IMG/VR virus record: IMGVR_UViG_3300012270_000024
Coordinates: 1-20,425 of that record
Direction: 5' to 3' (one strand)
From: a virus
DNA: 20,425 nt
Shown here one piece after another: positions 5,132 to 20,425 of this stretch. How positions within the stretch are numbered: position 1 is the stretch's first letter; every line of letters begins with the position of its first letter. Below the pieces are notes generated by a model, which was not told the DNA's origin, searched no databases, and saw only the letters and a list, made by a program, of their open reading frames with translations. The translations under genes and the position numbers were made by a program.

Positions 5132-5608
5132 TTATAAAATTTTAAAAGGGCCATTAGGATGTGTCTTAAATCTATTACTAGCTTTTGCTGGTTCACCTGC
5201 AAGTCCTGGGGCATTATTTACTCTAACAGTTTGTGTTATTTTATTGTTCTTATCTCTAATTATTGTATACACTACCCAATTGTGTTTACAAAAAGGCCCT
5301 CCACAATACTTAAAAATACTATAATTCTGTCCTTTATGTCCAAAGCTTTTATTCTTACCTTGAAAAGACATTATGTTAATTTCGGATTTAGTATAAAACT
5401 TATCTAAACGTATCATTTCTTTACAAAAATCCCTTTCTGGTTTAGGTCCCTCATATCTGTATACTGTTTCCTCACCTTTTGCTAAATCAATATATTCCAT
5501 TTCACCAAATACTAAATCTTTGGGAATCTTAAATCCAAATATTCTGGCTAGTCTTAGAATTGGGTCTTCATTATTATCTAATAATTTGATAGATGCATGT
5601 ATAGTCAT
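5132..5608 (-). CDS. Capsid-module protein with conserved Cys-His-Trp motif
   Basis: The product has 158 residues. It contains ERDFCKEMIRLDKFYTKSEI, then IMSFQGKNKSFGHKGQNYSIF and KYCGGPFCKHNW. This is a domain often found in Bacteroidota and other phages near, or fused to, MuF-like or XkdF-like head genes. The CGGPxCxHxW run looks able to bind a metal, although I see only two Cys and one His close together. It is the first gene after the 500-bp noncoding region and lies 22 nt before the protease/scaffold gene, so it probably opens the capsid operon. The variant motif TGTTTTTAGTTA ends 1 nt before the start. The biochemical function is unknown; a head morphogenesis role is inferred from context. 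Confidence 0.6.
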   Translation of the reverse strand: MTIHASIKLLDNNEDPILRLARIFGFKIPKDLVFGEMEYIDLAKGEETVYRYEGPKPERDFCKEMIRLDKFYTKSEINIMSFQGKNKSFGHKGQNYSIFKYCGGPFCKHNWVVYTIIRDKNNKITQTVRVNNAPGLAGEPAKASNRFKTHPNGPFKIL

Positions 5609-5735
5609 ATAACTAAAAACAATATTGAATATTAAATTTTGTCGGTGTGTGACACCTAAGCATTAAATAGTGTCTAATACTAGTGGTAGCAAGGAAGTTG
5701 AGTATGAAATTAAAGGAAGGTAATAGAATTAAATA
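5609..5735. other. Noncoding region upstream of capsid operon with short hairpins
   Basis: No gene is seen here. A compact inverted repeat GGTGTgtgACACC lies at about 5644-5656, and a weaker TAGT...ACTA pair follows near 5669-5683. The next 40 bases are purine-rich on the plus strand. The hairpin sits upstream of the capsid operon and could be an operator or part of its 5' leader. I could not find a clear Bacteroidota-type promoter (TAnnTTTG) on the minus strand. Confidence 0.35.
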
Positions 5736-5925
5736 ATTAAATATAAATAAATAAATTTCTTTTGCTTAGACTGTTTAAATAATTACACCACATATGATAT
5801 ATAAACTTAATTAAACCTTATAATATTTTAATTAAATATGAATAAATAAATTTCCTTTACTTAAACTATTTAAATAATTACCGCACATATAATATATAAA
5901 CTTAATTAAACCTTTATTATATTTA
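5736..5925. repeat. Two tandem ~95-bp AT-rich repeats
   Basis: Copy 1 (5736-5830) and copy 2 (5831-5925) align along their full length without a net gap. They share TAAATAAATAAATTTC, then TTTAAATAATTAC, CACATAT, and ATATATAAACTTAATTAAACC, with scattered single-base differences. A fragment of a third copy (ATTAATTATTTAA) follows. The sequence is almost all A and T, with stops in all frames. Such iterons occur at replication origins and regulatory regions, but the function here is unknown. Confidence 0.75.
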
Positions 5926-5951
5926 ATTAATTATTTAATCTATATATAAAA

Positions 5952-6107
5952 ACTCACTTAAAACTCTCTAATTAATAACCCGCCTACTGCGTGGCGTTCT
6001 CTATATTTAATTCGACTCTAAAGACTAATTATCTACTATTCGATACATAACACTAATTATACTTTAAACTCTATTACAAAGCCTTATAAGACAACACCCG
6101 ATGATGT
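5952..6107 (-). repeat. Inverted 155-bp element, left copy
   Basis: This is the left copy of an element whose right copy lies at 20248-20401 in opposite orientation. Read on the minus strand it has a 34-base block (ACATCATCGGGTGTTGTCTT...) identical to the right copy. A diverged ~45-base middle follows, then a second block with 35 identical bases and a GC-rich hairpin (CGCC, loop ACGCAGTA, GGCG) flanked by AATTAAATA and TATTAATT. Its first base lies in the stop codon of the tape measure gene. It stands out from its AT-rich surroundings by its conserved GC-rich hairpin. The function is unknown. Confidence 0.88.
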
Positions 6108-8032
6108 TATCCTATAAACCTAGAGTTTTTTTGTCTATTACGGTCTAATGCCTGTTGATTAGTCACCTTACCTGAAACCACATAAGCTTCCACAGGTTCA
6201 TTTTGATTAGGATTATTTTCAGAATCTCTAACATTTTGACTGTCTCCAACCGTATCAAATCTAGGACCAGAAGATATTCCACCACCAGCACCTCTTACAC
6301 CACCACTAGATGCAGGCCCATCACCAGTAGTAGGATTTGTTGATGCAATCTTAGCTACTTGTAATAAACCAAATACTCCTGTAGCAACTGCTTGTGCAAT
6401 AGCATAACCTGGGATTGGTTTATCAGCAAATGCAGCTAATGTTTTAGTAATAGCTAAGTAGGTATTAAATGCAGACTCAGCAATAGCAAATCCTTTAGCA
6501 GCTATACTACCTTGTCCAAGTGATTTTACAATAGCACTAGTTGCACCTAAATATGCTTGTATTTCGGTATTCTTAGCATCCTTTGTGGCTTGTGCTTGCT
6601 TGTTTTCTACAGCAACTTTCTTTTTTACTGTATCTTTATCAAACTTAGCAAGTAATGCAGCTTTTTCTTCTTCAAATTCTTCTAATGCTTCTAGTTCTTT
6701 TACATAAGCTTCTCTTTGAACTTCTCTTTCTCTCTCAAATATTTCAACTTGTGATAGACCTACATTATCTTCATCAATATATTTATCTCTAATCTCTTTT
6801 AATTTCGCTAATGATTCATCTTCTAGTGCTTGAATACCTTCATTATATTCCATTTCAGCAGCTAAAAGTAATGCAATTTCTTCCTCTTTACTTTCTACAT
6901 TTCTTTCAATTAAAATTCTTTGGTTTTCTAAAGTAGTTTCTAATTCAGCCTTACTTAACTCTTCTTTAGACTTACCTATCTTTCTTAATTCTTGTAAATT
7001 AGTTCTTCTTTCTTCTCGCAAAGATTGTTCATTTAACAATTGTTCACTAGTAAATCCTGCAATTCTTTCCTCTATATCTAATAGTTCTGTATTGGCATTT
7101 ATGAGTGCAATTTTTAATTCCTCATTATCTTTATTAGCAGCTAAATCTGCCGCTGCTTCATCAACTCTTAATTGTGCTAGTTCTCTTTCTTCTTCACCTT
7201 GTTGCTTTAATAATACACCTATCTCATCATTTGCTTTAATTCTAGCAGCCATATTCATTTCTACATTATCACGAACTTGTCTTAACTGTTCTATTTCAGT
7301 TTGATAAATAAATATAGACTGTCTTATTTGTGCCTCTGCCAATGCAGCTGACTTTCTTAATTCAACTTGTGCACCAGCAGCATCTAATATTCCAGCGGTA
7401 TAATCGTATATATCATTAGCACCTTTAGTTACTGCTACACCTAGTTTAAGTACTGAATTATCAACTCCTGTTATAACATCGGCAAACTCTATACCTGCTT
7501 CAACCCCAGTGGCAAAAGCTTTCTTAAATTCTCCTGCAAGTACTTGGTCTACAACTCTTGCCAACAGTCTAAAAGTAGCTACTAATGAAACTATTCTTTC
7601 AGTTATGTTTTGTGCTATTAATCTACCAAAATCCTTAATACTTTGTGTGGGGTCTTCAAATATACTCTTAAAAAAGTCAGATACATTACTTGTATTATCT
7701 ATAATATAAGATATAAAATCATTGATAATTCTAGAGGTTGCTTCCATAGCAATGTTAAATACATCTAAAACTCTTTGGTTTTTAGAAAGTACCTCAACAA
7801 ACTTAGCAAAAGCCGCAATGACTATACCTATACCTAATGCTTTTAAAGCTACACCTATGACATTTAATCCATTTGATATCCCTGTTAAAAAAGTAGGTGT
7901 CTTTTTGGTTGCAGTATTTAACTTATTAGTTTCTTGAGTGACACCTCCAATATTATCTTTGGTATCTTTTATATCTTTATTTGCTTTCTTGTTCTTTACT
8001 TCGAATTCAAATATCTTTTTTATTATATTCAT
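6107..8032 (-). CDS. Tail tape measure protein
   Basis: The product has 641 residues and is expected to set tail length and to line the tail tube before DNA ejection. It begins with a helical region, followed by a hydrophobic segment GVALKALGIGIVIAAFAKFV (residues about 57-76). A long charged coiled coil (about residues 225-480, rich in Glu, Lys, Arg and Leu) leads to an Ala-rich membrane-like stretch near 490-560 and a Gly-rich linker. The C-terminal motif VEAYVVSGKVTNQQALDR is typical of marine and Bacteroidota phage tape measures. At about 0.15 nm per residue a tail near 95 nm would be expected. It lies 3 nt after a 45-residue gene and ends exactly where the inverted element begins, closing the right-hand operon. 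Confidence 0.85.
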   Translation of the reverse strand: MNIIKKIFEFEVKNKKANKDIKDTKDNIGGVTQETNKLNTATKKTPTFLTGISNGLNVIGVALKALGIGIVIAAFAKFVEVLSKNQRVLDVFNIAMEATSRIINDFISYIIDNTSNVSDFFKSIFEDPTQSIKDFGRLIAQNITERIVSLVATFRLLARVVDQVLAGEFKKAFATGVEAGIEFADVITGVDNSVLKLGVAVTKGANDIYDYTAGILDAAGAQVELRKSAALAEAQIRQSIFIYQTEIEQLRQVRDNVEMNMAARIKANDEIGVLLKQQGEEERELAQLRVDEAAADLAANKDNEELKIALINANTELLDIEERIAGFTSEQLLNEQSLREERRTNLQELRKIGKSKEELSKAELETTLENQRILIERNVESKEEEIALLLAAEMEYNEGIQALEDESLAKLKEIRDKYIDEDNVGLSQVEIFEREREVQREAYVKELEALEEFEEEKAALLAKFDKDTVKKKVAVENKQAQATKDAKNTEIQAYLGATSAIVKSLGQGSIAAKGFAIAESAFNTYLAITKTLAAFADKPIPGYAIAQAVATGVFGLLQVAKIASTNPTTGDGPASSGGVRGAGGGISSGPRFDTVGDSQNVRDSENNPNQNEPVEAYVVSGKVTNQQALDRNRQKNSRFIG

Positions 8033-8035
8033 TTC

Positions 8036-8173
8036 TTAATCTATTATTTTGAATTTTCTTAGTATTCTTTTAAGAGTTTTTAACAACTCATGCTTCCCTT
8101 TATAAATACACATATAAGGATGCTTAGGCAATTTCTTGCAATTATTTAATTTATTTATTGTATCTGTTATCAT
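8036..8173 (-). CDS. Small basic protein before the tape measure gene
   Basis: This is a 45-residue ORF (MITDTINKLNNCKKLPKHPY..., ending RILRKFKIID), rich in Lys and with two Cys. It ends 3 nt before the tape measure start, in the tight spacing of co-translated genes. It fills an otherwise empty 180-bp gap. A recurring start-site motif with 23 bases identical to the one at 16524-16546 lies just upstream, which supports its being a real gene. I do not recognise a family. It is far too short to be the usual tail assembly chaperone, which is found elsewhere (17258-16552). Confidence 0.6.
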   Translation of the reverse strand: MITDTINKLNNCKKLPKHPYMCIYKGKHELLKTLKRILRKFKIID

Positions 8174-8180
8174 AATTGTA

Positions 8181-8203
8181 TATCTATTTTATCTAAAAAC
8201 ATT
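8181..8203 (-). promoter_or_regulatory. TGTTTTTAGATA motif with MFLD mini-ORF
   Basis: This 23-base block is identical to 16524-16546. On the minus strand it contains TGTTTTTAGATAAAATAGAT. From the ATG at 8202 it reads MFLDKIDIQL and stops with TGA at 8170-8172, overlapping the start of the 45-residue gene as ATGA. It may be a translation-coupling leader or a DNA/RNA signal. Confidence 0.45.
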
Positions 8204-8208
8204 CTTAA

Positions 8209-11200
8209 TTAATTACCAAAACTACATAAGTCAGAATTTATAACATCCCCATTGTTATTGGTTTCTAATACTATACCTTCATGTGAATAAAATCCAGCAA
8301 GGGCCCTTAATGAACCTGTACTGTTTCTATATAATACTTGACTACCTCCAAAATTACTACTTGTTGAGTAAACGTTTATTGATGAACTAGCAGAACAAGC
8401 ATTTAATGCATCAAAACCCGTAGCTACTAAGTATTCAAATAAATCGTTTGGATTAACTCCTACTTGTGTTACTGTATGTGTTTGAGATATGTTACCTGTA
8501 GAGAATGTTATATCCGCAACTCTAGTAGTATTTGATGAATTGTTAAGAACTCTTACTTCTAGGTTATCATTCCCACTTCCAGAGAATACATCAATGTCTA
8601 TCCAATTAGCATCTCTTAATACACTCCAAGATGTATTAGACTCAATAGTTATATTATAGTTTTGGGCACTTCTTGATACAGTTTTATTTTCAGGGTTAAT
8701 AGTTAATGTACCACTAAATCCTATTTGAGAAATATTAAAGTTCCTTGTTATAGTATTATTAGGACTACCTACATTTGCTTCTACTTGTAAAGTAAAGTTT
8801 CTGTTCTGTCCTGAATTGTTAGTATCAGCATCTATAGTAAATGAACCATTACCTGTACCACTGCCTCCAATTACTGTAAACCAGGAAGGTGCCGCACTAA
8901 CTACCCAGCTTGTATTAGATGTAACAGTAACACCTACATTATTTGGATTAAACTGTGTTAAACTAGCAGATGTAGGAATTAATGATAAAGTAGGTGTAAA
9001 GGCAGCTTGTGTAACATTATGTGTATCACTACTATTACCTACATTAGCTTCAACTGTAACTACACCTGTTCTAGTGTTGTCTGTGTTAGCAGAATAAATG
9101 TAATCTATCTCTTTATTACCAAAACCAGTTTGGTCAGCAGTAGGAATACTTAAAAAATTATTACCACTAGCACTCCAAGCAGTATTTGATATTACATCAA
9201 TTGAATTACTACCATTTTGATTACCTACACTAGAATTATTAGGTCTTATTATAACTTTCCTATCTACTACTATATTTAATGATATTGAATTAGCTACACT
9301 TTGTTGTCCTAAGTTATCAACTGCAATCACTCTATATTTGTATTGTCCACCTCCAAGTATATCAAAGTCTGTAAAGAATAAATTAGAAGTTGTACTTACA
9401 TTTTCAAAGGCCCCAAAATTAAGACTTCTTTGTACTATGTAATTAGCAATAGTTCCATACTCAGGATTAGAAGCTAACCAAGAAATATCTATTCTATCTC
9501 CATTATCTAAGTAAGTTACTTGTCCTTGGGGTCTACCAGTAGGAGGGGGATTAGGTTGGTCATATTCTAATTGATTTACAACTAAAGTATCTTCAATATT
9601 ATTTGCATTATTTCTTACTGTAACTATACCTTGTCTTTGTGAACCTAAATTATCATCTAAGGTTATACTTACATTATTACTATCACCATTTCCATTTGTT
9701 GTATTTAATGAAATCCAAGAAACGTCTTTAGTTACTGTCCAAGATACATTTGAATCAACTTCATATATATAACTATTATTATCAAAATCTAAATTAACAT
9801 TAGAGGGTATTACAGTTATAAAAGGTACTGCATCAGATTGTGTTATAAGTAAAGAATCTGTATAAAAACCTGTAAAGAAGTTTCCTATTCTAAAAGTAAT
9901 TAGAGAATCCCTATTTTCAGTTGTTGAGGGGTTTTCAGTTATTGTAAAAGTAAATCTATATCCTCCAGTTATAACAGTTGAAGAAGTTTCAGTTATAAAA
10001 GTTTCTTCTATAAAAGTAGTAGGTGTTACATCTGAATTTGTAGCTACTTCTACTGTAAAGTTTTGTGAACCACTACTTACATCTAAATCTTCTGTTAATA
10101 CTTCTATGAAAGGTTCTGCTTCTTGAGTAAAACTAAATGTTCTAAAAGATTGTTGTGTTAAAGGATATATTATAAAAGAATCATTTCTTTCTTCTTCTGT
10201 ATCATTTTCAGTTATGCTTAATCTTATAATACCATTTCCAAAATTTAAATCATCACTTAATAAAGTTATGTACTCAGGTAATTCTCCTATGGTCCAAAAT
10301 CCATTCGATTGCACATCAATTGTAAATTCTTGTCCTACTTGTGCTAAAACTCTAGAAGTAGGAGATATTGTTAACTGTGTATTATTTAAGCTACCTACTC
10401 TAATTGCTTGGTTAATATTTACCACATAAGTCTGACCCCCAATGACAAGAGTTATAGAAGCATTTCTCTGTTCATCTATATAATTCTCACTTACAAAAAC
10501 AGGTACATTAAATACTCTCCTATTACCAGAAATTTCCCCTAGAGTTATCCAAGTTGAATTTTCAGAAATAGATTCTATATCTTTATCTGTTCTTACTACT
10601 ATATTAGAGAATCCTCCACCTGCATTAAAGTTAATCTGTGTAGGACTTACAGTAGTTCCCGTAACTAAATATTGATTATTAAAGTTTGGAAACAGTCTAA
10701 ATTTACTCTCATTAGTAGTTAAATCTATCTCAAAATCTTCTATACTATATTTGTTATTCTTATATATTATCTGGCTATTTAAGTCTATATTATTAACTAT
10801 GCTAGGAGGTAATATACTGTCCATAGAAGTTATCCTTGCATCAGAATTTAATAGATTATCTATCCAAGGTTTATGATTTTGGTTGTAGATATTCTTAATT
10901 AAACTTATACCATGCCATCCATTAACCGTTGTAGAACTAAAGTCTAGATTATTAGTAACCTGTGATTCCACATAATTATTAGATGAGTCACAAATAGGTA
11001 CACCTGTTATTTCTATAATGTTGGTTTCACTTTTAGCTTCAGCACCCTCTTCTGGTCTAGAGTTTAAATCCAGTTTAATAGGTACAATAGTATCATCATT
11101 AGTAATAGGTGTTAACCCATTATAATAAAAACTTAACATATTCTCTGGGAATATACTATCTATTTTACTACCATCTACTTTATTATATAATGCTATGTTT

Positions 11201-12945
11201 ATATTAGAAGGTTTATTAGTATCTGAATTTTTCAACTTAACAAAGAATGGTATTTCTGTACTTAATTCTATTTCAGTTGTCTTCTTATTATCTACTGGGA
11301 AATTCTTTATGACATTACCTCTATATCTACCTGTGTTGAATTTAAAATCTTCCTGTAAAGCACTATTCTCTTCTACCTTATACTTGTAAGATATCTTCTT
11401 ATTATTTTTGTAAACAACAGACTCCTCTGATTCTTCATCAGTATACTTTGTAATATCAATTATATTACCTTCTGAATAGTAGTCATTAATGTTCTGTAGT
11501 CTAAAGTCTGTTGTAGAATTAGGTCTTATAATTAGTTTGAACTCCTTAATTAAGTTTTTCAGATAGTCTAATATAGTTATATCAGGCATGTTTCTACTTA
11601 CTGTAAAGGTAGGTAGTATCTCCTCTATAACTCTTACACCTCCCAATGCAGAAGCATCATCAATTTGAGTACCAGTACCAGAAGTCCCTGGTAATTTCCA
11701 AGTTGTAATCATGTCTGAGTAATATTCATTACCATCAGCAGTATTCATCTCTTCATTAATCTGTATTTCAACCCTATAAGTTTGGTCTATCACATCATTT
11801 GAGTTGGGTACCATGTTGTATTGTGTGTTAAATATAATTTCAAAAAATCCATTATCCCCAATATTAGGATTTGTAGTACCTCTACCTTGTGTAAGTTCAC
11901 TAGTATGTAATATATTATCCTCTCTATCAATTATCCTTATCTTAAAGAATATCTCATTAGGGAATTTATACTTGAATTTATGTTCAAAGTTAATTTCATA
12001 ACTCTCATTTAGTTCAGTAACACCACTTTCAGCAGCTAAATTGGCACTAGTCATGTTCAAATTAATGTCATCACCATCAAATGTTAGGTATTCATCCCCA
12101 ATATAAGCAGAAGCTTCTAAAGACTCCCACTTAAATACATTACTTCCATCAGGGTTACCATTTAACCAAGTATATAATGTGGTAAAATCTGTACTATCTA
12201 TAAAGTCTCTAGAAAATGTTATACCATATTTTTCCTCTATTGCTTCTATAATAGCCATCTGCCTTATAGCAGGTCTTAAATCCTCTACAAATAGTCTACC
12301 TTCCTCTGTTGTTATATCATCTTCGTTTCCAATAGTACCTGTATTGTACTCTATCTTTCTATTAGTAGGTATAATCATTGGCATTATCAAACTAGGTACT
12401 ACAGATAAAGATTCAGTTAATACTAAACTAGGTGTAGTAAATAGTGCATTTATGTTTCTCTCATTATAAGTGAAATTATAAGCAGAGAAATCTAGGTCTT
12501 TTAATTTAGCTTGTTCTCCTAAGTCTTTTCCTTCTCCATCTTTTAAAGTAAAAAGATTATCTAGTCCAGTGACCTGCCCATAGAAAGTAATAGAGTAGCT
12601 ATTTATCTTACCATCCTTATCTCTGGTAGCTTCTAACTGAGTTTTACCTGTTTTAAAATGTAATGTATTGTACTCAAGGAAAGAATCAACTCTTAAATTA
12701 GGGTTAAAACCATCTTTGACTCCAATCTCAAACCAGTTCTTAAATATTCTATTATTCTTAGGAGTAGCTGGAACTGTAAATGTATTTACAAGGTCATTAA
12801 AGATAGCTTCAATGTTATCAGCATCAACCAATTTACCCCTATACATTACACTCTCATCTTCAAATAAATCTATTTTATCCGATTCAGTGAAGATTGAGTT
12901 GTTATTATCTGTGTTAAAAGTTCCTATATAATAGTTTAAATTCAT
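8209..12945 (-). CDS. Tail hub / receptor-binding protein with BACON and FN3 domains
   Basis: The product has 1578 residues. Residues 1 to about 750 match a Bacteroidota phage tail-tip (hub) protein: TFTVPATPKNNRIFKNW, ITFYGQVTGLDNLF, YNFTYNERNI, and later MPDITILDYLKNLIKEF with DITKYTD and KISYKYKV. After this come about seven BACON-like beta domains starting near residues 762, 862, 946, 1043, 1225, 1318 and 1413. Most have the SNTSWxV core and end in xxxTQ/SQ. A fibronectin type III domain lies at about 1132-1222 (ISWLASNPEYGTIANYIVQR). The end (about 1497-1578) is a Cys-containing cap, NACSASSSINVYS...GFYSHEG, common at the ends of Bacteroidota surface proteins and phage fibres. BACON domains are thought to bind glycans or mucins, so a role in binding the host surface is likely. 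Its start overlaps the previous stop as TAATG. Confidence 0.82.
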   Translation of the reverse strand: MNLNYYIGTFNTDNNNSIFTESDKIDLFEDESVMYRGKLVDADNIEAIFNDLVNTFTVPATPKNNRIFKNWFEIGVKDGFNPNLRVDSFLEYNTLHFKTGKTQLEATRDKDGKINSYSITFYGQVTGLDNLFTLKDGEGKDLGEQAKLKDLDFSAYNFTYNERNINALFTTPSLVLTESLSVVPSLIMPMIIPTNRKIEYNTGTIGNEDDITTEEGRLFVEDLRPAIRQMAIIEAIEEKYGITFSRDFIDSTDFTTLYTWLNGNPDGSNVFKWESLEASAYIGDEYLTFDGDDINLNMTSANLAAESGVTELNESYEINFEHKFKYKFPNEIFFKIRIIDREDNILHTSELTQGRGTTNPNIGDNGFFEIIFNTQYNMVPNSNDVIDQTYRVEIQINEEMNTADGNEYYSDMITTWKLPGTSGTGTQIDDASALGGVRVIEEILPTFTVSRNMPDITILDYLKNLIKEFKLIIRPNSTTDFRLQNINDYYSEGNIIDITKYTDEESEESVVYKNNKKISYKYKVEENSALQEDFKFNTGRYRGNVIKNFPVDNKKTTEIELSTEIPFFVKLKNSDTNKPSNINIALYNKVDGSKIDSIFPENMLSFYYNGLTPITNDDTIVPIKLDLNSRPEEGAEAKSETNIIEITGVPICDSSNNYVESQVTNNLDFSSTTVNGWHGISLIKNIYNQNHKPWIDNLLNSDARITSMDSILPPSIVNNIDLNSQIIYKNNKYSIEDFEIDLTTNESKFRLFPNFNNQYLVTGTTVSPTQINFNAGGGFSNIVVRTDKDIESISENSTWITLGEISGNRRVFNVPVFVSENYIDEQRNASITLVIGGQTYVVNINQAIRVGSLNNTQLTISPTSRVLAQVGQEFTIDVQSNGFWTIGELPEYITLLSDDLNFGNGIIRLSITENDTEEERNDSFIIYPLTQQSFRTFSFTQEAEPFIEVLTEDLDVSSGSQNFTVEVATNSDVTPTTFIEETFITETSSTVITGGYRFTFTITENPSTTENRDSLITFRIGNFFTGFYTDSLLITQSDAVPFITVIPSNVNLDFDNNSYIYEVDSNVSWTVTKDVSWISLNTTNGNGDSNNVSITLDDNLGSQRQGIVTVRNNANNIEDTLVVNQLEYDQPNPPPTGRPQGQVTYLDNGDRIDISWLASNPEYGTIANYIVQRSLNFGAFENVSTTSNLFFTDFDILGGGQYKYRVIAVDNLGQQSVANSISLNIVVDRKVIIRPNNSSVGNQNGSNSIDVISNTAWSASGNNFLSIPTADQTGFGNKEIDYIYSANTDNTRTGVVTVEANVGNSSDTHNVTQAAFTPTLSLIPTSASLTQFNPNNVGVTVTSNTSWVVSAAPSWFTVIGGSGTGNGSFTIDADTNNSGQNRNFTLQVEANVGSPNNTITRNFNISQIGFSGTLTINPENKTVSRSAQNYNITIESNTSWSVLRDANWIDIDVFSGSGNDNLEVRVLNNSSNTTRVADITFSTGNISQTHTVTQVGVNPNDLFEYLVATGFDALNACSASSSINVYSTSSNFGGSQVLYRNSTGSLRALAGFYSHEGIVLETNNNGDVINSDLCSFGN

Positions 12946-15593
12946 TATTCGTTTATTTTTTTATCTTCTTTAAATCTAAAGCGGTAATTAATCATGTTTG
13001 TTTGTAAATTATCTTCCTTATTAAAGTTGCTTTCTTGTAAAGAAACTGCGTGTAGTTTATTATCATATTCCAACCATACTTCCTCACTCATAAAAAGGTC
13101 TTCATAGCAGTCATTCATATAAGCATCAACTAGACCTGTATTACATTCCCATTCTCTTTCACCTATTTTATTGTAAGTTTTATTTATATGCCTCAAAGGT
13201 TCTTGTGTATTTCCGTTTATATCTTTTATATCTCTATTATAAGAACTACTGTCTGTACTTACAGAATCAATACTTCTACCTGTCATGTATGTAGTTTCTA
13301 GCACACCAAAACTATTTTTGAATATAACCTTAAAGGATTCAAAAAGACAAGATGAGGTAGCTTTAAATAGAGTTACAGTATCAAATAGTCCATTGTTATC
13401 ATAGAAGTCTAGGATTGTCTTATCATTATTAAAGTATAAGTCATAATCAATACATACATAGCTTACATATATATCTGAATTGTTAGGGTCTATATTCTCA
13501 AAATTTGTATTAAGTAAAGTAACATCAAGTAAACCATCCCGAACTATTACCTTAGATACTCTTGAAGTTATAAAAGGAATTGTTATTTTATCTTTTGCCT
13601 TAAAGGTTCTTTTTTTACCTTTTAAAAGTATAGACTCAAAATCATTATACCCATCTAAAATAAAACCTATATCATTCTTCTCTTCTAATACATTATCATT
13701 TATTGATATGTTTGAAGAAAAGCTTATAAACTTACCTACATTTGCTGAATTTAAAATAGGAGAAGTTGTTCCATAACCTAAACTATTGTAGTAGCTTATG
13801 TTTGATTCTAAATCACTAATGTCAATTAATGGACTAAGATTTAAAAACTGATTTGTTTGTACATCACTTATCTTTTGTTTATCAATTTGATTACTAGCTT
13901 CATTTAATTGCATAGAGAAAAACCCTTGTTCATATACATCATATCTAAAACTAGCATTTGACCAGTTACTTGAAATAGGTGATTTTATAAAGAAATCCTT
14001 TCTTATGGGGATATTGATAAGTCTACCTTCTAGTCCACCATCATTACTTGCTATTGTTATACTTAACTTATTTGGAATATCTTTTATATTATTTACAAAG
14101 TATATATCATTCTCATTTTCAATTATCTTAAAAACCCTTACTGTATCATTACCTATTTTTATGTATTTAAATCCTAAGTCTGTATCAATAGAATTTTGTT
14201 CTACTAGATTATTAAATAGATTATCCCTTGTAATACTTACACTTGAATTAACCAACAGTACTTCATTTGGGTTTAAGTCTGTAGTTAAATCATTGTATTC
14301 AGTTATATCACCACCGATTAATAAATCATTTGTACTAGAGGAATTACCATCTTCTAAATAAGCAAATGCCTTTACTCTATTATTTATATTTAACCTTTTG
14401 TCTAATAAACCTGTGTTTACATTTAATCTACCAAAATCATAAGATAAAGTTTGTGAAACAAAGTTTATGTAAATAGTATTATTCTCTGCAACTACTGCTT
14501 CAGTTATTGCATCAATATCATAATCAAAAATAAAGGTTGGGTCAATAACACCATCTAAATTTACTCTTATTATTTTATTAACATCTATACCATTGTACTC
14601 CTCAAAGTTCCCTGATATGTAATAATTATTATCTATTTTAGATATATTCTTTGTATTAGCATCTAATGATTTAAACCCATCTATCTGATTACCTAAAACA
14701 TTAAAAGCGATTAGGTTATCCCTTATATCACTTTTAAAAACACCACAAACTAATATTTGTAAATCCCCTTGTTGCTTAATAAATATTTCATTTATATCAT
14801 CCCCACCACCTAAATTTTGTATATTAATTGTGTTTCTAAACTTGTCAAATAATTTATTACCCTGTAATTCAAACTCTGAATTAACCATAAATAATCTTCT
14901 TGCAACTACACCAATAACTTCGGTAAACTTACCACCAAATGCTATCACTCCATTACTCTGTATAACATCTATTGCAGTAACTTTACCATTAACACTTCCT
15001 TCCGTAGCAAAGTTAATCATAGAAGCTGATACTGCTTCATTTAATAGGTCAAGTTCAAATAAGTTATTTAAATCATATATATCTACACCTTCAAATTGTC
15101 CACCAATAAGTAGACTGTCATTAATAGAGTGGTACTTTATAATATCAACAGATACACCAGACCCAATAAAATCTGAATAATCTACTGACTGAAATACAGT
15201 TCCATCGGCATTTAAAATTATAAATAAATTACAAGCAGTTGTTACACCATTCTTAGTGTACTCTGAAAATTTACCACCTACTGCAATTAAATTAATATCC
15301 TCTTCTCTATAATTAAAAGGTTCAATAGTTAAAACCTCATCATCAAAACTTCCTATTAAGTCTTTAGCAATACCACCATTTAAAGTAAATATATTATCTG
15401 CCTGTGTAGTATCTGCTGATACAAAAGTTTTATCAACTAATGATGGGTTAATGTCATAACCAAATCCTTCAAAGTTCTTATTGATTTGATAAGTAAAGTT
15501 AGTACCAGAAGGTATATGTAACTCAGGTTGCGAAGTAAAAAAAGCACTTGAATCTAATCTTAAATCTATTTGTAATAATTTTATTTCTGCCAT
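12945..15593 (-). CDS. Distal-tail-like protein with N-terminal beta-propeller
   Basis: The product has 882 residues from MAEIKLLQID. A longer start at 15632 would add 13 residues encoded in the A-rich leader and in the overlap with the previous gene, so I prefer 15593. Residues about 80-480 hold six repeats of the Delta-60/DUF5122 type, each centred on a GGxF strand: GGKFSEY, GGQFEGV, GGKFTEV, CGVFKSD, SGNFEEYNG and GGDITEYND, as in a six-bladed propeller. Residues about 600-882 match the distal-tail-like region of Bacteroidota siphophages: FKVIFKNSFGVLETTYMTGR, EREWECNTGLVDAYM, LFMSEEVWLEYDNKLHAV and MINYRFRFKED. It likely joins the tail tube to the hub encoded next, with the propeller facing outward. 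Confidence 0.72.
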   Translation of the reverse strand: MAEIKLLQIDLRLDSSAFFTSQPELHIPSGTNFTYQINKNFEGFGYDINPSLVDKTFVSADTTQADNIFTLNGGIAKDLIGSFDDEVLTIEPFNYREEDINLIAVGGKFSEYTKNGVTTACNLFIILNADGTVFQSVDYSDFIGSGVSVDIIKYHSINDSLLIGGQFEGVDIYDLNNLFELDLLNEAVSASMINFATEGSVNGKVTAIDVIQSNGVIAFGGKFTEVIGVVARRLFMVNSEFELQGNKLFDKFRNTINIQNLGGGDDINEIFIKQQGDLQILVCGVFKSDIRDNLIAFNVLGNQIDGFKSLDANTKNISKIDNNYYISGNFEEYNGIDVNKIIRVNLDGVIDPTFIFDYDIDAITEAVVAENNTIYINFVSQTLSYDFGRLNVNTGLLDKRLNINNRVKAFAYLEDGNSSSTNDLLIGGDITEYNDLTTDLNPNEVLLVNSSVSITRDNLFNNLVEQNSIDTDLGFKYIKIGNDTVRVFKIIENENDIYFVNNIKDIPNKLSITIASNDGGLEGRLINIPIRKDFFIKSPISSNWSNASFRYDVYEQGFFSMQLNEASNQIDKQKISDVQTNQFLNLSPLIDISDLESNISYYNSLGYGTTSPILNSANVGKFISFSSNISINDNVLEEKNDIGFILDGYNDFESILLKGKKRTFKAKDKITIPFITSRVSKVIVRDGLLDVTLLNTNFENIDPNNSDIYVSYVCIDYDLYFNNDKTILDFYDNNGLFDTVTLFKATSSCLFESFKVIFKNSFGVLETTYMTGRSIDSVSTDSSSYNRDIKDINGNTQEPLRHINKTYNKIGEREWECNTGLVDAYMNDCYEDLFMSEEVWLEYDNKLHAVSLQESNFNKEDNLQTNMINYRFRFKEDKKINE

Positions 15594-15603
15594 TTTATAT
15601 ATA

Positions 15604-16068
15604 TTATTTTTCTTCTTCGTTGAATATATCATCTAAATCTTTAGAAAATCCTTCTACCAATCTATCATCTACACCACGACCTCTTTGTAATTGAACCTCT
15701 ACTTTATCACCTATTCTTCTAGGTACTAAACCTTTTCTAAATATAGAATTTTGTACTGCATATACATTTATATTCTTAGCATCTGCCCATTCTTTTAATG
15801 CAGAAATTGGGGGCTTCTTATCCTTATAAGAAAATGGTGTATCATATTGAAATATTGAATATGCATCCTTAGCTTTCAAACTACCAGAAACTCCTTTGTC
15901 TAAGAAATGGTAATACAATAACCCATCAATATAGAATCCATCTTCTGTTTTATTTAACTTTATACTTTTTTTCAAAGCTGAATTAAACACAGGTGAGAAT
16001 TGTTGAAATGAATTTTTATATTCTATTCCAATACCCAAAACTGCATTTCTTAAATTCTTTCCTAACAT
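15604..16068 (-). CDS. Neck / tail-completion protein (HK97 gp10-like)
   Basis: The product has 154 residues. The pattern YYHFLDKGVSGSLKAKDAYS, then PFSYKDKKPPISALKEWADA, INVYAVQNSIFRKGLVPRR and a long C-terminal helix is that of HK97 gp10-like proteins as found in Bacteroidota phages. The features are a DxGVxG turn, a short helix before a W, and an ixxxGlxPrr strand. These proteins sit at the head-tail joint or complete the tail. The gene overlaps the end of the tail-terminator-like gene by 7 nt, so the two are translationally linked. The assignment is from pattern and synteny. Confidence 0.65.
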   Translation of the reverse strand: MLGKNLRNAVLGIGIEYKNSFQQFSPVFNSALKKSIKLNKTEDGFYIDGLLYYHFLDKGVSGSLKAKDAYSIFQYDTPFSYKDKKPPISALKEWADAKNINVYAVQNSIFRKGLVPRRIGDKVEVQLQRGRGVDDRLVEGFSKDLDDIFNEEEK

Positions 16069-16517
16069 ACTTCTGTTTTGTTTATTAATTGCAATGTTAT
16101 TGTCACTGCAAATCCATCTAAGCCATTTAGATTAGATAGGTAGATTGGACTTAAATCACTTACACTTATCATTGTGATACTATCACGATTATCAACGCTT
16201 AGAACTGTTAAGAATTCGTTTAAAATAGAATAGCATGTATTGTGATTATCAATCAAATTATCATTACCTAAAAACTTTGTGTCATTATGTCTGTTATCTC
16301 TTGTTCTTTGATTTAGAACTCCTATCTCAAATGTAAATTCATTAACTGCATTAGTTGACCAAGGACTTGCCAATGGATTAATATGTGCTAAAGGATATAA
16401 ATTATTTTTAAGTAAATCTGCATCTTCATTTCTAGCGTATATAACTGTATTGACTAAAGGATTCTCATTGAGTACTTCCTTTATTCTTTCTGTCACTTTA
16501 TAAAAATTATTATTCAT
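16062..16517 (-). CDS. Tail terminator-like protein
   Basis: The product has 151 residues. The pattern is that of Bacteroidota phage tail terminator or completion proteins: an N-terminal helix YKVTERIKEVL, VNTVIYARNEDADLLKNNLYPLAHI, a central strand TFEIGVLNQR, the helix NTCYSILNEFLTVL and a C-terminal LNGLDGFAVTITLQL ending in NKTEVC. Such proteins cap the growing tail and fix it to the head. The start at 16517 has a TGTTTTTAGATA motif block just upstream that is identical over 23 bases to the one before the 45-residue gene. The next gene overlaps its stop. Confidence 0.6.
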   Translation of the reverse strand: MNNNFYKVTERIKEVLNENPLVNTVIYARNEDADLLKNNLYPLAHINPLASPWSTNAVNEFTFEIGVLNQRTRDNRHNDTKFLGNDNLIDNHNTCYSILNEFLTVLSVDNRDSITMISVSDLSPIYLSNLNGLDGFAVTITLQLINKTEVC

Positions 16518-16546
16518 ATTCTATATCTATTTTATCTAAAAACATT
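16510..16546 (-). promoter_or_regulatory. TGTTTTTAGATA motif with MFLD mini-ORF
   Basis: The 23-base block 16524-16546 is identical to 8181-8203. From the ATG at 16545 the minus strand reads MFLDKIDIEYE and stops with TAA at 16510-16512, just past the ATG of the next gene (16517). This mini-ORF has its own good leader, AAAATAAAATACAATG, of the type used by real genes here. That makes a translated leader peptide plausible. Confidence 0.45.
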
Positions 16547-16551
16547 GTATT

Positions 16552-16833
16552 TTATTTTGAATGATTTAATTTTATTCTAGCATCTTCTGCTTCTCTTCTA
16601 TCTGTCATGTAGTTGAGGTAATGTAGGAATTCGGCTACTGGACTTTCTAACACTTTATTAACGTTTAAATATTTAAAATCTGCGGCTACCATAATTTGAT
16701 TATACCAACCATACATTTCTGCTATTTCTTCATCTTTAGTTATTATTCTTCTTTCACTTTTTGCTTCAGTACTTGACTCTGAATATACTCTTGGGAATTT
16801 TGTAATAAAATCACGTTTAAAGTCAAAAAAAAA
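16552..16833 (-). CDS. -1 frame extension of tail assembly chaperone
   Basis: From the run of nine T at 16833-16825 the -1 frame stays open for 93 codons to a TAA at 16552-16554. It reads FFFDFKRDFITKF, then a linker, EEIAEMYGWYNQIM, VNKVLESPVAEFLHYLNYMT and a basic end. The YGWY...VxxxxxxxxLxYLxY pattern is that of the C-terminal chaperone domain of Bacteroidota phages. Joined to the 0-frame protein it gives about 235 residues, like the lambda G/GT pair. There is no good start codon with an A-rich leader within it except a poor ATG at the EMYGW Met, so frameshifting is preferred. A single-base error in the homopolymer is the alternative. Confidence 0.65.
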   Translation of the reverse strand, partial: FFFDFKRDFITKFPRVYSESSTEAKSERRIITKDEEIAEMYGWYNQIMVAADFKYLNVNKVLESPVAEFLHYLNYMTDRREAEDARIKLNHSK

Positions 16834-17258
16834 GACATAACACTATGATATATTGAAATGTCTGCTTCTAGCATTTTACTAGAATATCTCTCTACATCAA
16901 CGAACTTTTCTATTTCATATGATTTACCATAAGAGTATTTAATCGGTCTGTACAGTACTGCAAGTAGCTTGTGGATACTCTCTACTTTATTTTCATAGCT
17001 ATCTATTTCTAAATACTCTACTGTATACATTTGTTGAAGGTTTGGAATTAATCCATACTCTACACCGTTAAGTATAAACCTTTCTACTAGAGTTTCATTT
17101 TTTTTGTTAATACCTTGTAAGTAATTTATTAACATTTTATTAGCTTCATTAAGAGTTAAATGTTTATTAATATTTAAGAGTTCTCTTACAATAGCTTCTT
17201 CGTCATTTTTATTTGCATCAAATAATAATCTAATTGTTATGTAATCTTTAACCTTCAT
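16743..17258 (-). CDS. Tail assembly chaperone, short (0-frame) form
   Basis: The product has 171 residues and is expected to bind the tape measure protein and guide tail assembly. The pattern matches the Bacteroidota tail assembly chaperone family: MKVKDYITIRLLFD, the helix LTLNEANKMLINYLQ, FILNGVEYGLIPNLQQMYTVEYLEID and ESIHKLLAVLYRPI. Near Met141-Phe144 the mRNA has nine U (16833-16825) that can slip from U UUU UUU in the -1 direction. The 0 frame runs 27 codons beyond this site before its stop. The leader AAAACAACAATATG follows 16 nt after the terminase stop. Its place just after the terminase, far from the tape measure gene, is unusual. Confidence 0.7.
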   Translation of the reverse strand: MKVKDYITIRLLFDANKNDEEAIVRELLNINKHLTLNEANKMLINYLQGINKKNETLVERFILNGVEYGLIPNLQQMYTVEYLEIDSYENKVESIHKLLAVLYRPIKYSYGKSYEIEKFVDVERYSSKMLEADISIYHSVMSFFLTLNVILLQNSQEYIQSQVLKQKVKEE

Positions 17259-17274
17259 ATTGTTGTTTTTTATT

Positions 17275-18493
17275 TTATCTAATTCTATATCTTTCTACTT
17301 TCTTGTTCCTACCTCTATACACTATATAGTAATTTATTGCATCGACATAGTGATTATATTTGTCGACTGGTCTATCCCCTAGTGCGTAGTTCTCATCCCA
17401 GCAATATTCATTAAATTCATTTATAATATCTTTACTCTCTGGGTCTACAATAATTTTATAGTCTCTTAACATTTCTAATCTATCAACTATTTTAGGTTTA
17501 CTGACTGGTAAAATATTACAATGTCCATTTTTTAATTCAGCAATAATGTCAGGTGATGCAGAATCTGCAATGATGAGGTCTCTACCACATATATTTGATA
17601 CTAGAGTTGCAAGCTTAGAAGGTATTATTCCTGTTTGATATAATAGACCCTTAACATATAAAAGCTTCTTAGAATGGTCTATATGGCATTTAACTAAAGC
17701 AGTAGGGTCATTAGAAAATCCAAAGTCCAAACCATATTCTGCACTTACATTAGGAAAGTTTCCTAGTTCCCAATTTGTTATAATTAATCCCTCTGCCTTA
17801 TCTTTGAATCCACCTAATATTATATTGTTATATTTATCATAATCTTTTATCTTTAGTTCTTCAAATTCTTTTATTATATCTTTGTTAAGGTTTTCATAAT
17901 TATCTAGATAACTTGTGTGTATATACGTTATGTTATCATATGTTAAATTACTGCCAGGTTCTATTCCCTTATCCAAAAACCATTTAGTATATAGCCAATG
18001 TTTCTTCGTTGGTGGATTGAATACTAGTATAACCTCATTGTCAGCTAGGACTGTTCTTATAGAGAAGTTAATAGTATCGAATAGTGTCTGGTCATGCAGT
18101 TCTTCTGCTTCATCTAATACCCATGTAGTAAGTCCTGCAATAGATTTAAGTGCAGCTGTTTGTATCTTAGCACCAGTTTTTAATCCCCTAAATAAAATTC
18201 TAGAACCTGTTTGTTTATTAATAATTTCTGTGTTGTTAACCGTAAAAGAATCCTCTAATTCCAATAGTTCTATCTTTTCTACAAATTCTGGGATAACTGA
18301 CAAATGGGCAGATACCATTGTATAACGTGTAAATAATATTACCTCGTTTTCTTGGAATGTTTTGAATAATAAATATACTGCTACCGAGAATGATTTACTT
18401 GACCCACAATCGACCCCCACTGATTATGTAATATCTACTATTATCCATAATCAAGGGGGTATATTTATTATCTAATACTATTTTTTCTGTCAT
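17275..18493 (-). CDS. terL: Large terminase subunit, reading frame broken at Walker A
   Basis: This is the packaging motor ATPase and nuclease. The true start is at 18493 (MTEKIVLDNKYTPLIMDNSR, YYIISGGR), overlapping the small-subunit stop as TAATG, but this frame hits TAA at 18395-18397. The rest of the protein is in the +1 frame, from GSSKSFSVAVYLLF to the end at 17275. Joined, the P-loop reads SGGR-(C)-GSSKSFSVA, close to the GGRGSSKS form usual in Bacteroidota phages. Then come Walker B TTWVLDEAEEL, nuclease motif I YGLDFGFSNDPTALV, motif II IIADSASPD and motif III KYNHYVDAINYY. The expected length is about 405 residues, normal for the family. One extra base (or a 4-base insertion) near 18400-18415 explains the break. 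A GTG at 18420 could start a shorter form, but it would lack the first glycines of the P-loop. Confidence 0.85.
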
Positions 18494-18942
18494 TACTTAA
18501 ATTTTATTAAAGATTTTAAATCAAATTCATTCTTATTAGTATTCTTATTAGTATTTTCAGTTTTTTCTTTCCAATCATGTTTAGATGATAATGTGAATTT
18601 TGCCATTGTAGAATCTACTTTTCTATTTAATGATAAGTCTGCTAATTTATATTCTTGCATCTTTAAAAGGTCATCATAGTAATCTTGTAAATATGTTTTG
18701 ATTCTAAAAATATCTAATAGTTTTGTATTATACAATCCATTTTGCATTAAGAAAGATTTAACGAATATATTCTTTTCGTGTATATCTATAATTTTATCAT
18801 TCTTATCTTGTATTTTATAAGGCAATAACCATTCAGCACATTCATTAAATAAAGAGATTATTTCATCATCACTCCAATGATATTCTCTGTGTTTTTTGTG
18901 CGTTGGTTTCGTTTGGTTCTGTTTACTTTCGTTCTCTTTCAT
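18493..18942 (-). CDS. Small terminase subunit
   Basis: The product has 149 residues. It has a basic, Lys/Gln/Asn-rich N-terminus, then YHWSDDEIISLFNECAEWLL, the FLMQNGLYNTKLLDIFRIKT region that resembles a helix-turn-helix, and LADLSLNRKVDSTMAKFTLS leading to SSKHDWKEKTE. This matches the Bacteroidota phage small terminase pattern, which recognises the packaging site and loads the large subunit. Its start overlaps the preceding gene by 20 nt, and its stop overlaps the large-subunit start as TAATG, so the two subunits are translationally coupled. The tail of alternating Asn-Thr-Lys (TENTNKNTNKN) is probably a flexible linker. Confidence 0.7.
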   Translation of the reverse strand: MKENESKQNQTKPTHKKHREYHWSDDEIISLFNECAEWLLPYKIQDKNDKIIDIHEKNIFVKSFLMQNGLYNTKLLDIFRIKTYLQDYYDDLLKMQEYKLADLSLNRKVDSTMAKFTLSSKHDWKEKTENTNKNTNKNEFDLKSLIKFK

Positions 18943-19204
18943 ATGTTACTTTTATTTTAGCTATCATTTTCTTAACAACACCTGGACAATGACACTTTTT
19001 ATATTTTGTGTTAAATAAATCATTATGTGTATCGAATAACCAAGATACATCCTCACTAGGCACTCTACCTTCATAAGATGTCACTTTGTTATATACATCA
19101 TCTTGAACAGTATAAACTAATAAATCGTATTCTTTTTTAACAGATTTATATTCTAGAGTTCTTTTATCCAGTCCTTCCATTTTTATTATTAAATCTTCTT
19201 TCAT
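18923..19204 (-). CDS. Small hypothetical protein with CxC motif
   Basis: The product has 93 residues and is charged, with no signal peptide or membrane segment. The C-terminal part has an LFDTHNDLFNTKYKKCHCPG stretch (Cys71 and Cys73) followed by a basic helix VVKKMIAKIKVTYERERK. A hydrophobic helix, then Cys pair, then basic helix, is seen in small phage proteins placed before small terminases. I cannot name a function. It lies between the sigma-like gene (4-nt gap) and the small terminase (20-nt overlap), and a packaging or DNA-binding helper role would fit. A TGTTTTTAGATA motif ends 1 nt before its start. Confidence 0.6.
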   Translation of the reverse strand: MKEDLIIKMEGLDKRTLEYKSVKKEYDLLVYTVQDDVYNKVTSYEGRVPSEDVSWLFDTHNDLFNTKYKKCHCPGVVKKMIAKIKVTYERERK

Positions 19205-19218
19205 ATATCTAAAAACAT
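19201..19218 (-). promoter_or_regulatory. TGTTTTTAGATA motif with MFLD mini-ORF
   Basis: From the ATG at 19218 the minus strand reads MFLDI and stops with TGA at 19201-19203, overlapping the next start as ATGA. The motif covers the last codons and the stop (TAG, 19209-19211) of the sigma-like gene in another frame. Its upstream bases AAAATAAAATG look like the usual leader. Confidence 0.4.
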
Positions 19219-19808
19219 TTTATTTTAACATCCCACAAATATTTTATTGTGTTTATTACTTTTAGTCTAGAATTTGATATTGTTTTCTCACTCTTTTCAA
19301 AATATACACTAGCTTTTTTTATAGTGTTTTTTCTAATTAAGCAGTAGTGAAATATTTCTATATCAAATTCATTTATTCTATGATAGTTAGCTAATGTATT
19401 AACTATAAATCTTAACTTATCTGTTTCTATATCATCTTGTGTTCTGTCATATTCTTCTATATTAGATTCTAGTTCATATATTAGAGAAGAATCTGTTAAA
19501 GTATTATTAAGACTTATATTGTTAAATTCTTTAAATACTTTTGTCTTTAAACTAGCTTCTCTAGTTATTGTATTCAGAATTGTATTCTTGCACAATATAA
19601 AGTAATAGTTATCATTCATTTGCTTTTCTTCCCACTTATCTAATAAATTCCTTTTATGGAATGTTTCTAATACTTTTGAATGTGCTTCCTCTGCAATATA
19701 TCTATCAGCTTGATTAGTTCTTTTTTTGTTAGCAGAATATTGTGTTGCTAGAATAAGACAGTAATCTTTAAGTTGATTAACTAATTTAGTAGTTATATTA
19801 ATCTTCAT
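19209..19808 (-). CDS. Sigma-70-like regulatory protein
   Basis: The product has 199 residues. Residues about 30-85 (ADRYIAEEAHSKVLETFHKR, then NDNYYFILCKNTILNTITRE) resemble sigma region 2 as found in short Bacteroidota phage sigma-like proteins. An acidic linker follows, then a C-terminal helix-turn-helix near 165-190 (FEKSEKTISNSRLKVINTIK) like region 4. It could direct host RNA polymerase to phage late promoters, which would suit its place early in the late operon. It overlaps the preceding gene by 11 nt. Similarity to other small helix-turn-helix proteins cannot be ruled out, and I see no full set of region 2 residues, so confidence is moderate. Confidence 0.55.
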   Translation of the reverse strand: MKINITTKLVNQLKDYCLILATQYSANKKRTNQADRYIAEEAHSKVLETFHKRNLLDKWEEKQMNDNYYFILCKNTILNTITREASLKTKVFKEFNNISLNNTLTDSSLIYELESNIEEYDRTQDDIETDKLRFIVNTLANYHRINEFDIEIFHYCLIRKNTIKKASVYFEKSEKTISNSRLKVINTIKYLWDVKIKCF

Positions 19809-20037
19809 ATTCTATTTCAGGATTATTTTTCTTGAAGTTTTGTAAATCAATTTCTGCCTTCTCGACTAAATCATTCCACCTTATAGTTAATCTACCTTGT
19901 TCAAATGTTAAAGACAATACATGATTGTTTTCTCTAATAGTTTGTAATTCATCTTCGGAGGTATATAGGTTAACATATTTAATAGTTCTAAGGTAAAAGT
20001 ATTCTCCTTGTGTTTTAACAAATTCTGTTTCGTTCAT
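19798..20037 (-). CDS. Hypothetical acidic protein
   Basis: The product has 79 residues (MNETEFVKTQGEYFYLRTIK...), acidic, with a central beta-like half (VLSLTFEQGRLTIRWNDL) and a C-terminal helix EKAEIDLQNFKKNN. It has no recognisable motif, signal peptide or membrane segment. Its leader AAATAAAACAATG is of the strong local type. It follows the small membrane protein gene by 4 nt and overlaps the sigma-like gene by 11 nt, so it belongs to the same operon. The function is unknown. Confidence 0.6.
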   Translation of the reverse strand: MNETEFVKTQGEYFYLRTIKYVNLYTSEDELQTIRENNHVLSLTFEQGRLTIRWNDLVEKAEIDLQNFKKNNPEIEYED

Positions 20038-20041
20038 TGTT

Positions 20042-20200
20042 TTATTTTTTTTTAAACAAACTTAAAATCCAAATTATTACTATTGCTAGAAGTGTAGCTG
20101 TTATTCTGTATATCCATATATTATCAATGACTATAACTATTATTATTAAAAAGCTAAATACTAGTAATGTTAATTTGGTTTGTTTGTCAGTTGTTTTCAT
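20042..20200 (-). CDS. Small two-helix membrane protein (holin-like)
   Basis: This is a 52-residue ORF beginning MKTTDKQTKLTLLVFSF. It has a short polar N-terminus, a first hydrophobic helix (about residues 10-25, LIIIVIVI), a turn DNIWIYR, a second helix (about 33-49, ATLLAIVIIWILSLF) and a C-terminal KKK. Small size, two membrane helices and a basic tail are general features of class II holins, but no lysis gene lies nearby in the window, so this is only a possibility. It is the first gene of the right-hand operon and ends 4 nt before the next start. A promoter-like pair lies just upstream. Confidence 0.6.
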   Translation of the reverse strand: MKTTDKQTKLTLLVFSFLIIIVIVIDNIWIYRITATLLAIVIIWILSLFKKK

Positions 20201-20217
20201 AGTATATATATTAAATT

Positions 20218-20246
20218 TTTATAATGCCTTGTTATGTTATAGTCAA
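20218..20246 (-). promoter_or_regulatory. Promoter-like TTGACT-17-TATAAA
   Basis: On the minus strand TTGACT (20246-20241) and TATAAA (20223-20218) are 17 nt apart. This is near the general sigma-70 consensus and lies 18 nt before the start of the first gene of the right-hand operon. It lies just inside the inverted element (which starts at 20248). It is not the Bacteroidota TAnnTTTG form, so a phage- or housekeeping-type use is uncertain. Confidence 0.4.
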
Positions 20247-20247
20247 T

Positions 20248-20401
20248 ACATCATCGGGTGTTGTCTTATAAGGCTTTGTAAGAGAGTTTAATCTATAAAT
20301 GGTATAATGTATACTAATAGATAATTAAGGCTTTAGAGTCGAATTAAATATAGAGAACGCCACGCTGTAGGCGGGCTATTAATTAGAGGAGGGAAGTGAG
20401 T
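20248..20401 (+). repeat. Inverted 155-bp element, right copy
   Basis: This is the right copy of the element at 5952-6107, in opposite orientation. It has a 34-base identical block (20248-20281), then a diverged middle that includes the palindrome GTATAatgTATAC near 20302-20314. A second conserved block follows (from about 20331), with the hairpin CGCC-ACGCTGTA-GGCG at 20358-20373 inside an outer AATTAAATA/TATTAATT stem. The similarity ends near AAGTGAGT at 20401. The element faces inward toward the operon. No protein is encoded by it. Confidence 0.88.
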
Positions 20402-20425
20402 CTGACCGTACTAGAGAGTCTAAAC
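20402..20425. other. Edge sequence with GAGTCT direct repeats
   Basis: Only 24 bases remain after the repeat. GAGTCT occurs at about 20399-20404 and GAGTCTA at about 20416-20422. Nothing more can be said at the window edge. Confidence 0.2.

Follow-up and report, generated by a model that had tools for sequence, protein, structure and literature searches.

The DNA analysed here, hereafter the window, is a complete IMG/VR record of 20,425 bp from a phage of flavobacteria-like hosts, and it represents a fragment of a genome, since replication genes found in its relatives are missing from it. Its minus-strand gene order equals that of the Nonlabens phages P12024L and P12024S (Inhavirus): in both cases TerL, a BACON tail protein and the tape measure are followed by the capsid genes and the portal. 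The Inhavirus phages differ in that small genes on the opposite strand separate the tape measure from the capsid genes, and neither of the two elements described below, block E and array D, was found in them. In the window, the gene that we consider to be probably the tape measure, judging by its position, directly precedes the left copy of E. A further difference concerns gene 5132-5608: its Inhavirus relative forms the C-terminal end of the portal itself, whereas in the window it is a separate gene. The position of this domain varies among relatives (loci compared: window 5132-5608; L148 9447-10004; L083 3405-5087).

For comparison we used G032, the full contig of relative L094 (IMG/VR contig 3300031216_000071, 22,512 bp), whose TerL is 91% and whose MCP is 93% identical to that of the window. 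The TerL frame of the window breaks at the P-loop (18400-18480, minus strand), with YYIISGGR and GSSKSF falling into successive frames, while it is open in G032; the break is either a sequencing error or a real frameshift. Ahead of TerL lies a 199-aa protein (19209-19808, minus strand) that is conserved in this place in relatives, and the similarly placed gp35 of P12024L is annotated with sigma-70 region 2, so that the protein is perhaps a late sigma factor. Searches of the window for tRNA, tmRNA and Rfam families returned nothing.

Outside its first 800 bases, the window contains three non-coding gaps longer than 100 bp (5609-6106, 8033-8208 and 20201-20425), and two of these are occupied by inverted copies of E, each with D on its outer side (Table 1). 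The two E and D pairs face apart, one at each end of the late packaging and tail genes. The sequence-only reading had described this block as exactly bracketed by the copies; they do lie at its ends, but this carries little weight since few gaps of such length exist. Nor does the left copy close the gene set, as had been proposed, because genes on the same strand as the bracketed operon run on from 5608 to 802.

Table 1. Features of the two sites and their neighbouring genes (window coordinates)
Feature	Position	Strand	Remarks
Gene accompanying the left module	5132..5608	-	58% identity to a G038 gene close to a holin-like gene
Array D, left site	5734..5934	-	two 95-bp units, 13% GC; contains the lowest-GC 180 bases of the window
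Left block E	5966..6107	-	91.4% identical to right copy; ~79% to G032 right copy
GC-rich box of left E	5979..5998	-	AACGCCACGCAGTAGGCGGG; first 9 bases invariant in 3/3 E copies
Two 28-bp direct repeats of left E	6001..6056	-	TTAGTGTTATGTATCGAATAGTAGATAA / TTAGTCTTTAGAGTCGAATTAAATATAG
Weaker third 28-bp repeat of left E	6057..6084
Hairpin across the tape-measure stop codon	6083..6118	-	16 pairs (four G-T); half gene end, half E; terminator-like
Virion structural protein, probably tape measure	6107..8032	-	phrog_21537; upstream of left E
Terminase large subunit (TerL)	17275..18420	-	reading frame broken at start
First gene of bracketed operon	20042..20200	-	52 aa; homologue at G032 527-697
Right block E	20248..20388	+	points away from operon head; G032 equivalent at ~345-490
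Best-kept 28-bp repeat of right E	20326..20353	+	two preceding repeats degenerate
GC-rich box of right E	20356..20375	+	AACGCCACGCTGTAGGCGGG
Start of array D, right site	20400..20425	+	GTCTGACCGTACTAGAGAGTCTAAAC vs G032 GTATGACCAATCTAGACAGTCTAAGC; contig ends there

Structure of block E and array D

The two inverted copies of E exist where the sequence-only reading had placed them, with identical runs of 34 and 35 bases as claimed. In a global alignment they agree at 128 of 140 positions, and a self-blastn of the window reported them as the sole pair at the settings used (143 aligned columns, 89.5%, expect value 7e-48). The repeat arms pair 5966-6026 with 20328-20388 (61 nt, 95%) and 6043-6107 with 20248-20312 (65 nt, 89% complementarity). 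The left copy is in sense with the late genes and starts within the stop codon of the tape measure, while the right copy lies 47 bp from the first operon gene, and its homology to the left extends weakly as far as 20401. The short diverged middle that had been noted is present, and consists mainly of the second of the repeats described next. What did not hold is the proposed extent of about 155 bp, as each copy is one half of a larger module composed of E and D.

Internally, E is built from imperfect 28-bp direct repeats and a GC-rich box. The periodicity of the left copy at a lag of 26-30 was reached by 3 of 500 dinucleotide shuffles and that of the G032 copy by none of 500, with TRF also reporting a period of 28 in G032; in the right copy the signal is weak, and the first and third repeats alone still match, at a lag of 57. 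A weight matrix of the repeat finds matches confined to E in the window and G032, and the 28-bp unit has no evident dyad symmetry. Across the three E copies of the two module-carrying genomes that were compared, the blocks CTTTAGAGTCGAATTA and TAGAGAACGCCACG are unchanged from one genome to the other, within aligned DNA that is ~64-80% identical.

D is a tandem AT-rich array with units of 95-111 bp. The lowest-GC 180-mer of the window and that of G032 both fall in D, at 12.8% each compared with 30% overall, and the left D units of the window are related to the G032 arrays by TATATATCATATGTGGTGTAATT. On the right side, the 26 bases that follow E match the start of D, and the window stops inside it. 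E and D thus adjoin at both window sites, the right D being cut by the contig end, and also at the right site of G032. Since both contigs end in or at D, we infer that short-read assembly failed to cross this repeat array at either contig end.

Distribution of the module and likeness of its two sites

Relatives were found with the MCP, which is 93% identical in L093 and L094 and 81-86% identical in L095-L108; a search of viral contigs with TerL had missed these nearest relatives, its listed matches being at most 51% identical. In G032, the right E occupies the same place as in the window, in the stretch that separates the first TerL-operon gene from the contig end, and likewise points away from the operon; outward of it follow 2.8 tandem D units of 111 bp. 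Like the window, G032 has E followed by D at its operon head, D there amounting to about three units, and the two genomes share an inserted gene. They differ at the left site, where E is truncated in G032: after the tape measure the repeat part is gone, a GAACGC...G-rich stretch resembles the end of E by eye, and this stretch is followed by one D unit and then by the homologue of gene 5608. They differ as well in their D units, which in G032 are 111 bp long with TTAGAC...GTCTAA and in the window 95 bp. As to whether the element always flanks the same block in related phages, E and D are kept at the operon head of G032, while its left site is without most of E.

We compared the junction between tape measure and protease in 16 relatives (15 of L093-L108, with L097 left out, and L114). 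The left module and gene 5132-5608 occur there only in the window and in L093/L094, the latter with a remnant of the module. In 13 others of L095-L108 the tape measure runs to the protease with a gap of about 40 bp, and in the more distant L114 the gap is somewhat longer and also without E. At the operon head of G037, G038 and G040 (TerL 68-69%) we found neither E nor D. The record of G038 starts and ends with the same ~127 bases and so is seemingly complete, circular or circularly permuted, at ~31.4 kb; it contains nothing resembling the module, while its homologue of gene 5608 (58% identity) lies near a holin-like gene. Given the 13 relatives without the left module and the different location of this homologue in G038, we conclude that the left module and gene 5132-5608 arrived together, or were moved there, in the lineage of the window. 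Of the earlier proposal that the element marks a module boundary, it is this lineage-limited insertion at the tape-measure/protease junction that stands.

Searches of viral contigs with the core patterns of E and D gave matches in G032 and G031 only, and exact long E patterns gave none. A shorter E pattern had four matches there, which we attribute to chance (alignments of 19-20 bases only, with one read-out contig at 67% GC), as we do the short likenesses to E in L032 and L087. No match was obtained for the right copy among phage records, for the left copy among plasmids, or, with a gapped E pattern, in the collection of bacterial and archaeal genomes, where MCP relatives were not found either, and relatives found via the 19209-19808 protein included no further E carrier. 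Literature searches on P12024L, P4 crr and flavobacterial phage origins yielded no title or abstract dealing with such an element.

The two sites of one genome are more alike than either is to its counterpart in the other genome. The E copies of the window are 91.4% identical to each other and 79-80% identical to that of G032, and the left and right D units of G032 are 85% identical over 75 bp, whereas they match the units of the window over 29-39 bp only, the left one over 35 bp. As a left module is present in both genomes, these figures from two genomes are most simply read as suggesting that the sites exchange sequence within each genome; independent duplication is a possible alternative.

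A candidate origin-like role

We favour the reading that E and D together form a non-coding, protein-binding module acting in cis. Among the functions that had been listed for the element from its sequence, binding of a replication or packaging protein would fit best, because the 28-bp repeats are kept in a relative and adjoin the most AT-rich stretch of the genome. More specifically, we consider an origin-like role in replication, to which we assign a probability of roughly 0.35. The E repeats would then be candidate protein-binding iterons beside an AT-rich D, and two features looked for in an iteron-type origin are present, namely tandem direct repeats (period 28, weak in the right copy) and an adjacent AT-rich stretch, which in both genomes is the one of lowest GC.

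The lambda origin has its four iterons inside the O gene beside an AT-rich tract; each is a 19-bp imperfect inverted repeat to which O binds, and two iterons together with the tract are the minimal unit competent for unwinding (PMC7466680). The module is like ori-lambda in layout only, with short direct repeats beside an AT-rich tract, and we do not claim that it belongs to the same class: its 28-bp units have no evident dyad, it lies outside any gene, no initiator is encoded on its contig, and it is present as two inverted copies 14 kb apart. The relatives' primase has a VirE N-terminal domain according to the annotation of P12024L/S, and it is this primase, together with the lambda-like layout, that leads us to place a replication role first and transcription control only slightly below it.

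The satellite phage P4, which uses a replication protein of primase-helicase type, may offer a further likeness, since its crr and ori are a pair of separate non-coding regions that have repeats in common; in G032 the second copy is only a truncated one. The two copies are not terminal inverted repeats of a linear genome, as in phi29 or the tectiviruses, the left copy being internal with capsid and portal genes beyond it. No initiator gene was found on the window contig, and the replication genes lie outside both contigs. Moreover, the left site of G032 has lost the repeat part of E, which argues that two full modules are dispensable, and the seemingly complete G038 has no counterpart of the module. 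GC skew shows no turn at the left site (5.9 kb) and is uninformative here because the genes on either side share one strand.

Alternative readings and significance

The strongest alternative, which we regard as possible yet somewhat unlikely, is that E and D form a transcription-control array in which the repeats are operators and D perhaps holds repeated promoters, switching the late operon and the capsid genes after the left copy. A gene block begins right after each module, with gene 5608 in the case of the left one, and AACAAGGCA(T/A)TA is common to the operon heads of the window (20222-20233, minus strand) and G032 (494, plus strand) and recurs before the G032 homologue of gene 5608 (15023, plus strand), so that it is a possible late promoter element. 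In addition, G038 has a promoter-like sequence of ~85 bases (ATTAGTTTAAGTAAGTGTTCATTTATC...TATATTTG) repeated before three genes (L107 12783-12864, 19249-19335 and 19750-19838); these repeats were considered as copies of E and rejected as such. However, neither E nor D contains a match to the Bacteroidota promoter boxes TTTG-n-TAnnTTTG, and no excess of sigma-70-like sites was found. At the right site, moreover, E points off the operon and D lies beyond it, so that their order with respect to the genes downstream is opposite to that at the left site.

We consider it unlikely that E is a structured RNA or the 3' end of a transcript, with the left copy ending the tape-measure transcript via a hairpin and E acting as a non-coding RNA. 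The hairpin over the tape-measure stop codon is strong (z -6.0; one hairpin of 16 pairs found compared with 0.1 expected) and may end a transcript there. In all three copies, folding is also stronger for the E strand than for its complement, and the outer stem CGGGUG/CGCCACG is invariant among them. Yet the z-scores for the fold of whole E are only -1.5, -1.9 and -0.7, the right copy prefers another fold to the stop-codon hairpin, and half of that hairpin belongs to the gene end. An earlier suggestion of a structured RNA is further weakened by the lack of any match of E to Rfam and by a covariation term that is unfavourable in the three sequences available, with one pair changed on both sides and 331 of 500 shuffles scoring as well.

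That positions 5952-20401 are a cassette with terminal inverted repeats, inverting or moving as a unit, is very improbable. The inverted 150-bp copies at both ends and their likeness within a genome, which suggests recombination between the sites, speak for it, but all 16 relatives are collinear at the tape-measure/protease junction and none is inverted, contrary to the block inversion previously envisaged. Furthermore, the same genes are present without E in relatives, and G032 has an unchanged layout in spite of having lost most of E at its left site. The window genes searched against PHROGs gave no recombinase or transposase match, although one could lie off the contig. Finally, the possibility that misassembly produced the right copy, by duplicating the left one with a switch of strand, can be dismissed almost entirely. 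Its nearness to the contig end (24 bp) would speak for this, but substitutions and indels set the middles of the two copies apart, and G032, a separate contig, carries an E of different sequence at the corresponding operon head.

Returning to the replication reading, two opposed origin-like modules, one at either end of the late operon and kept similar by exchange, might jointly start replication as a looped or bipartite site, which is an extension that we hold to be improbable. Little is known of the replication origins of Bacteroidota phages or of the sites that control their late genes, and the module provides a defined, conserved pair of sites that combines a repeat unit with an AT-rich partner and has a natural variant without most of one copy.
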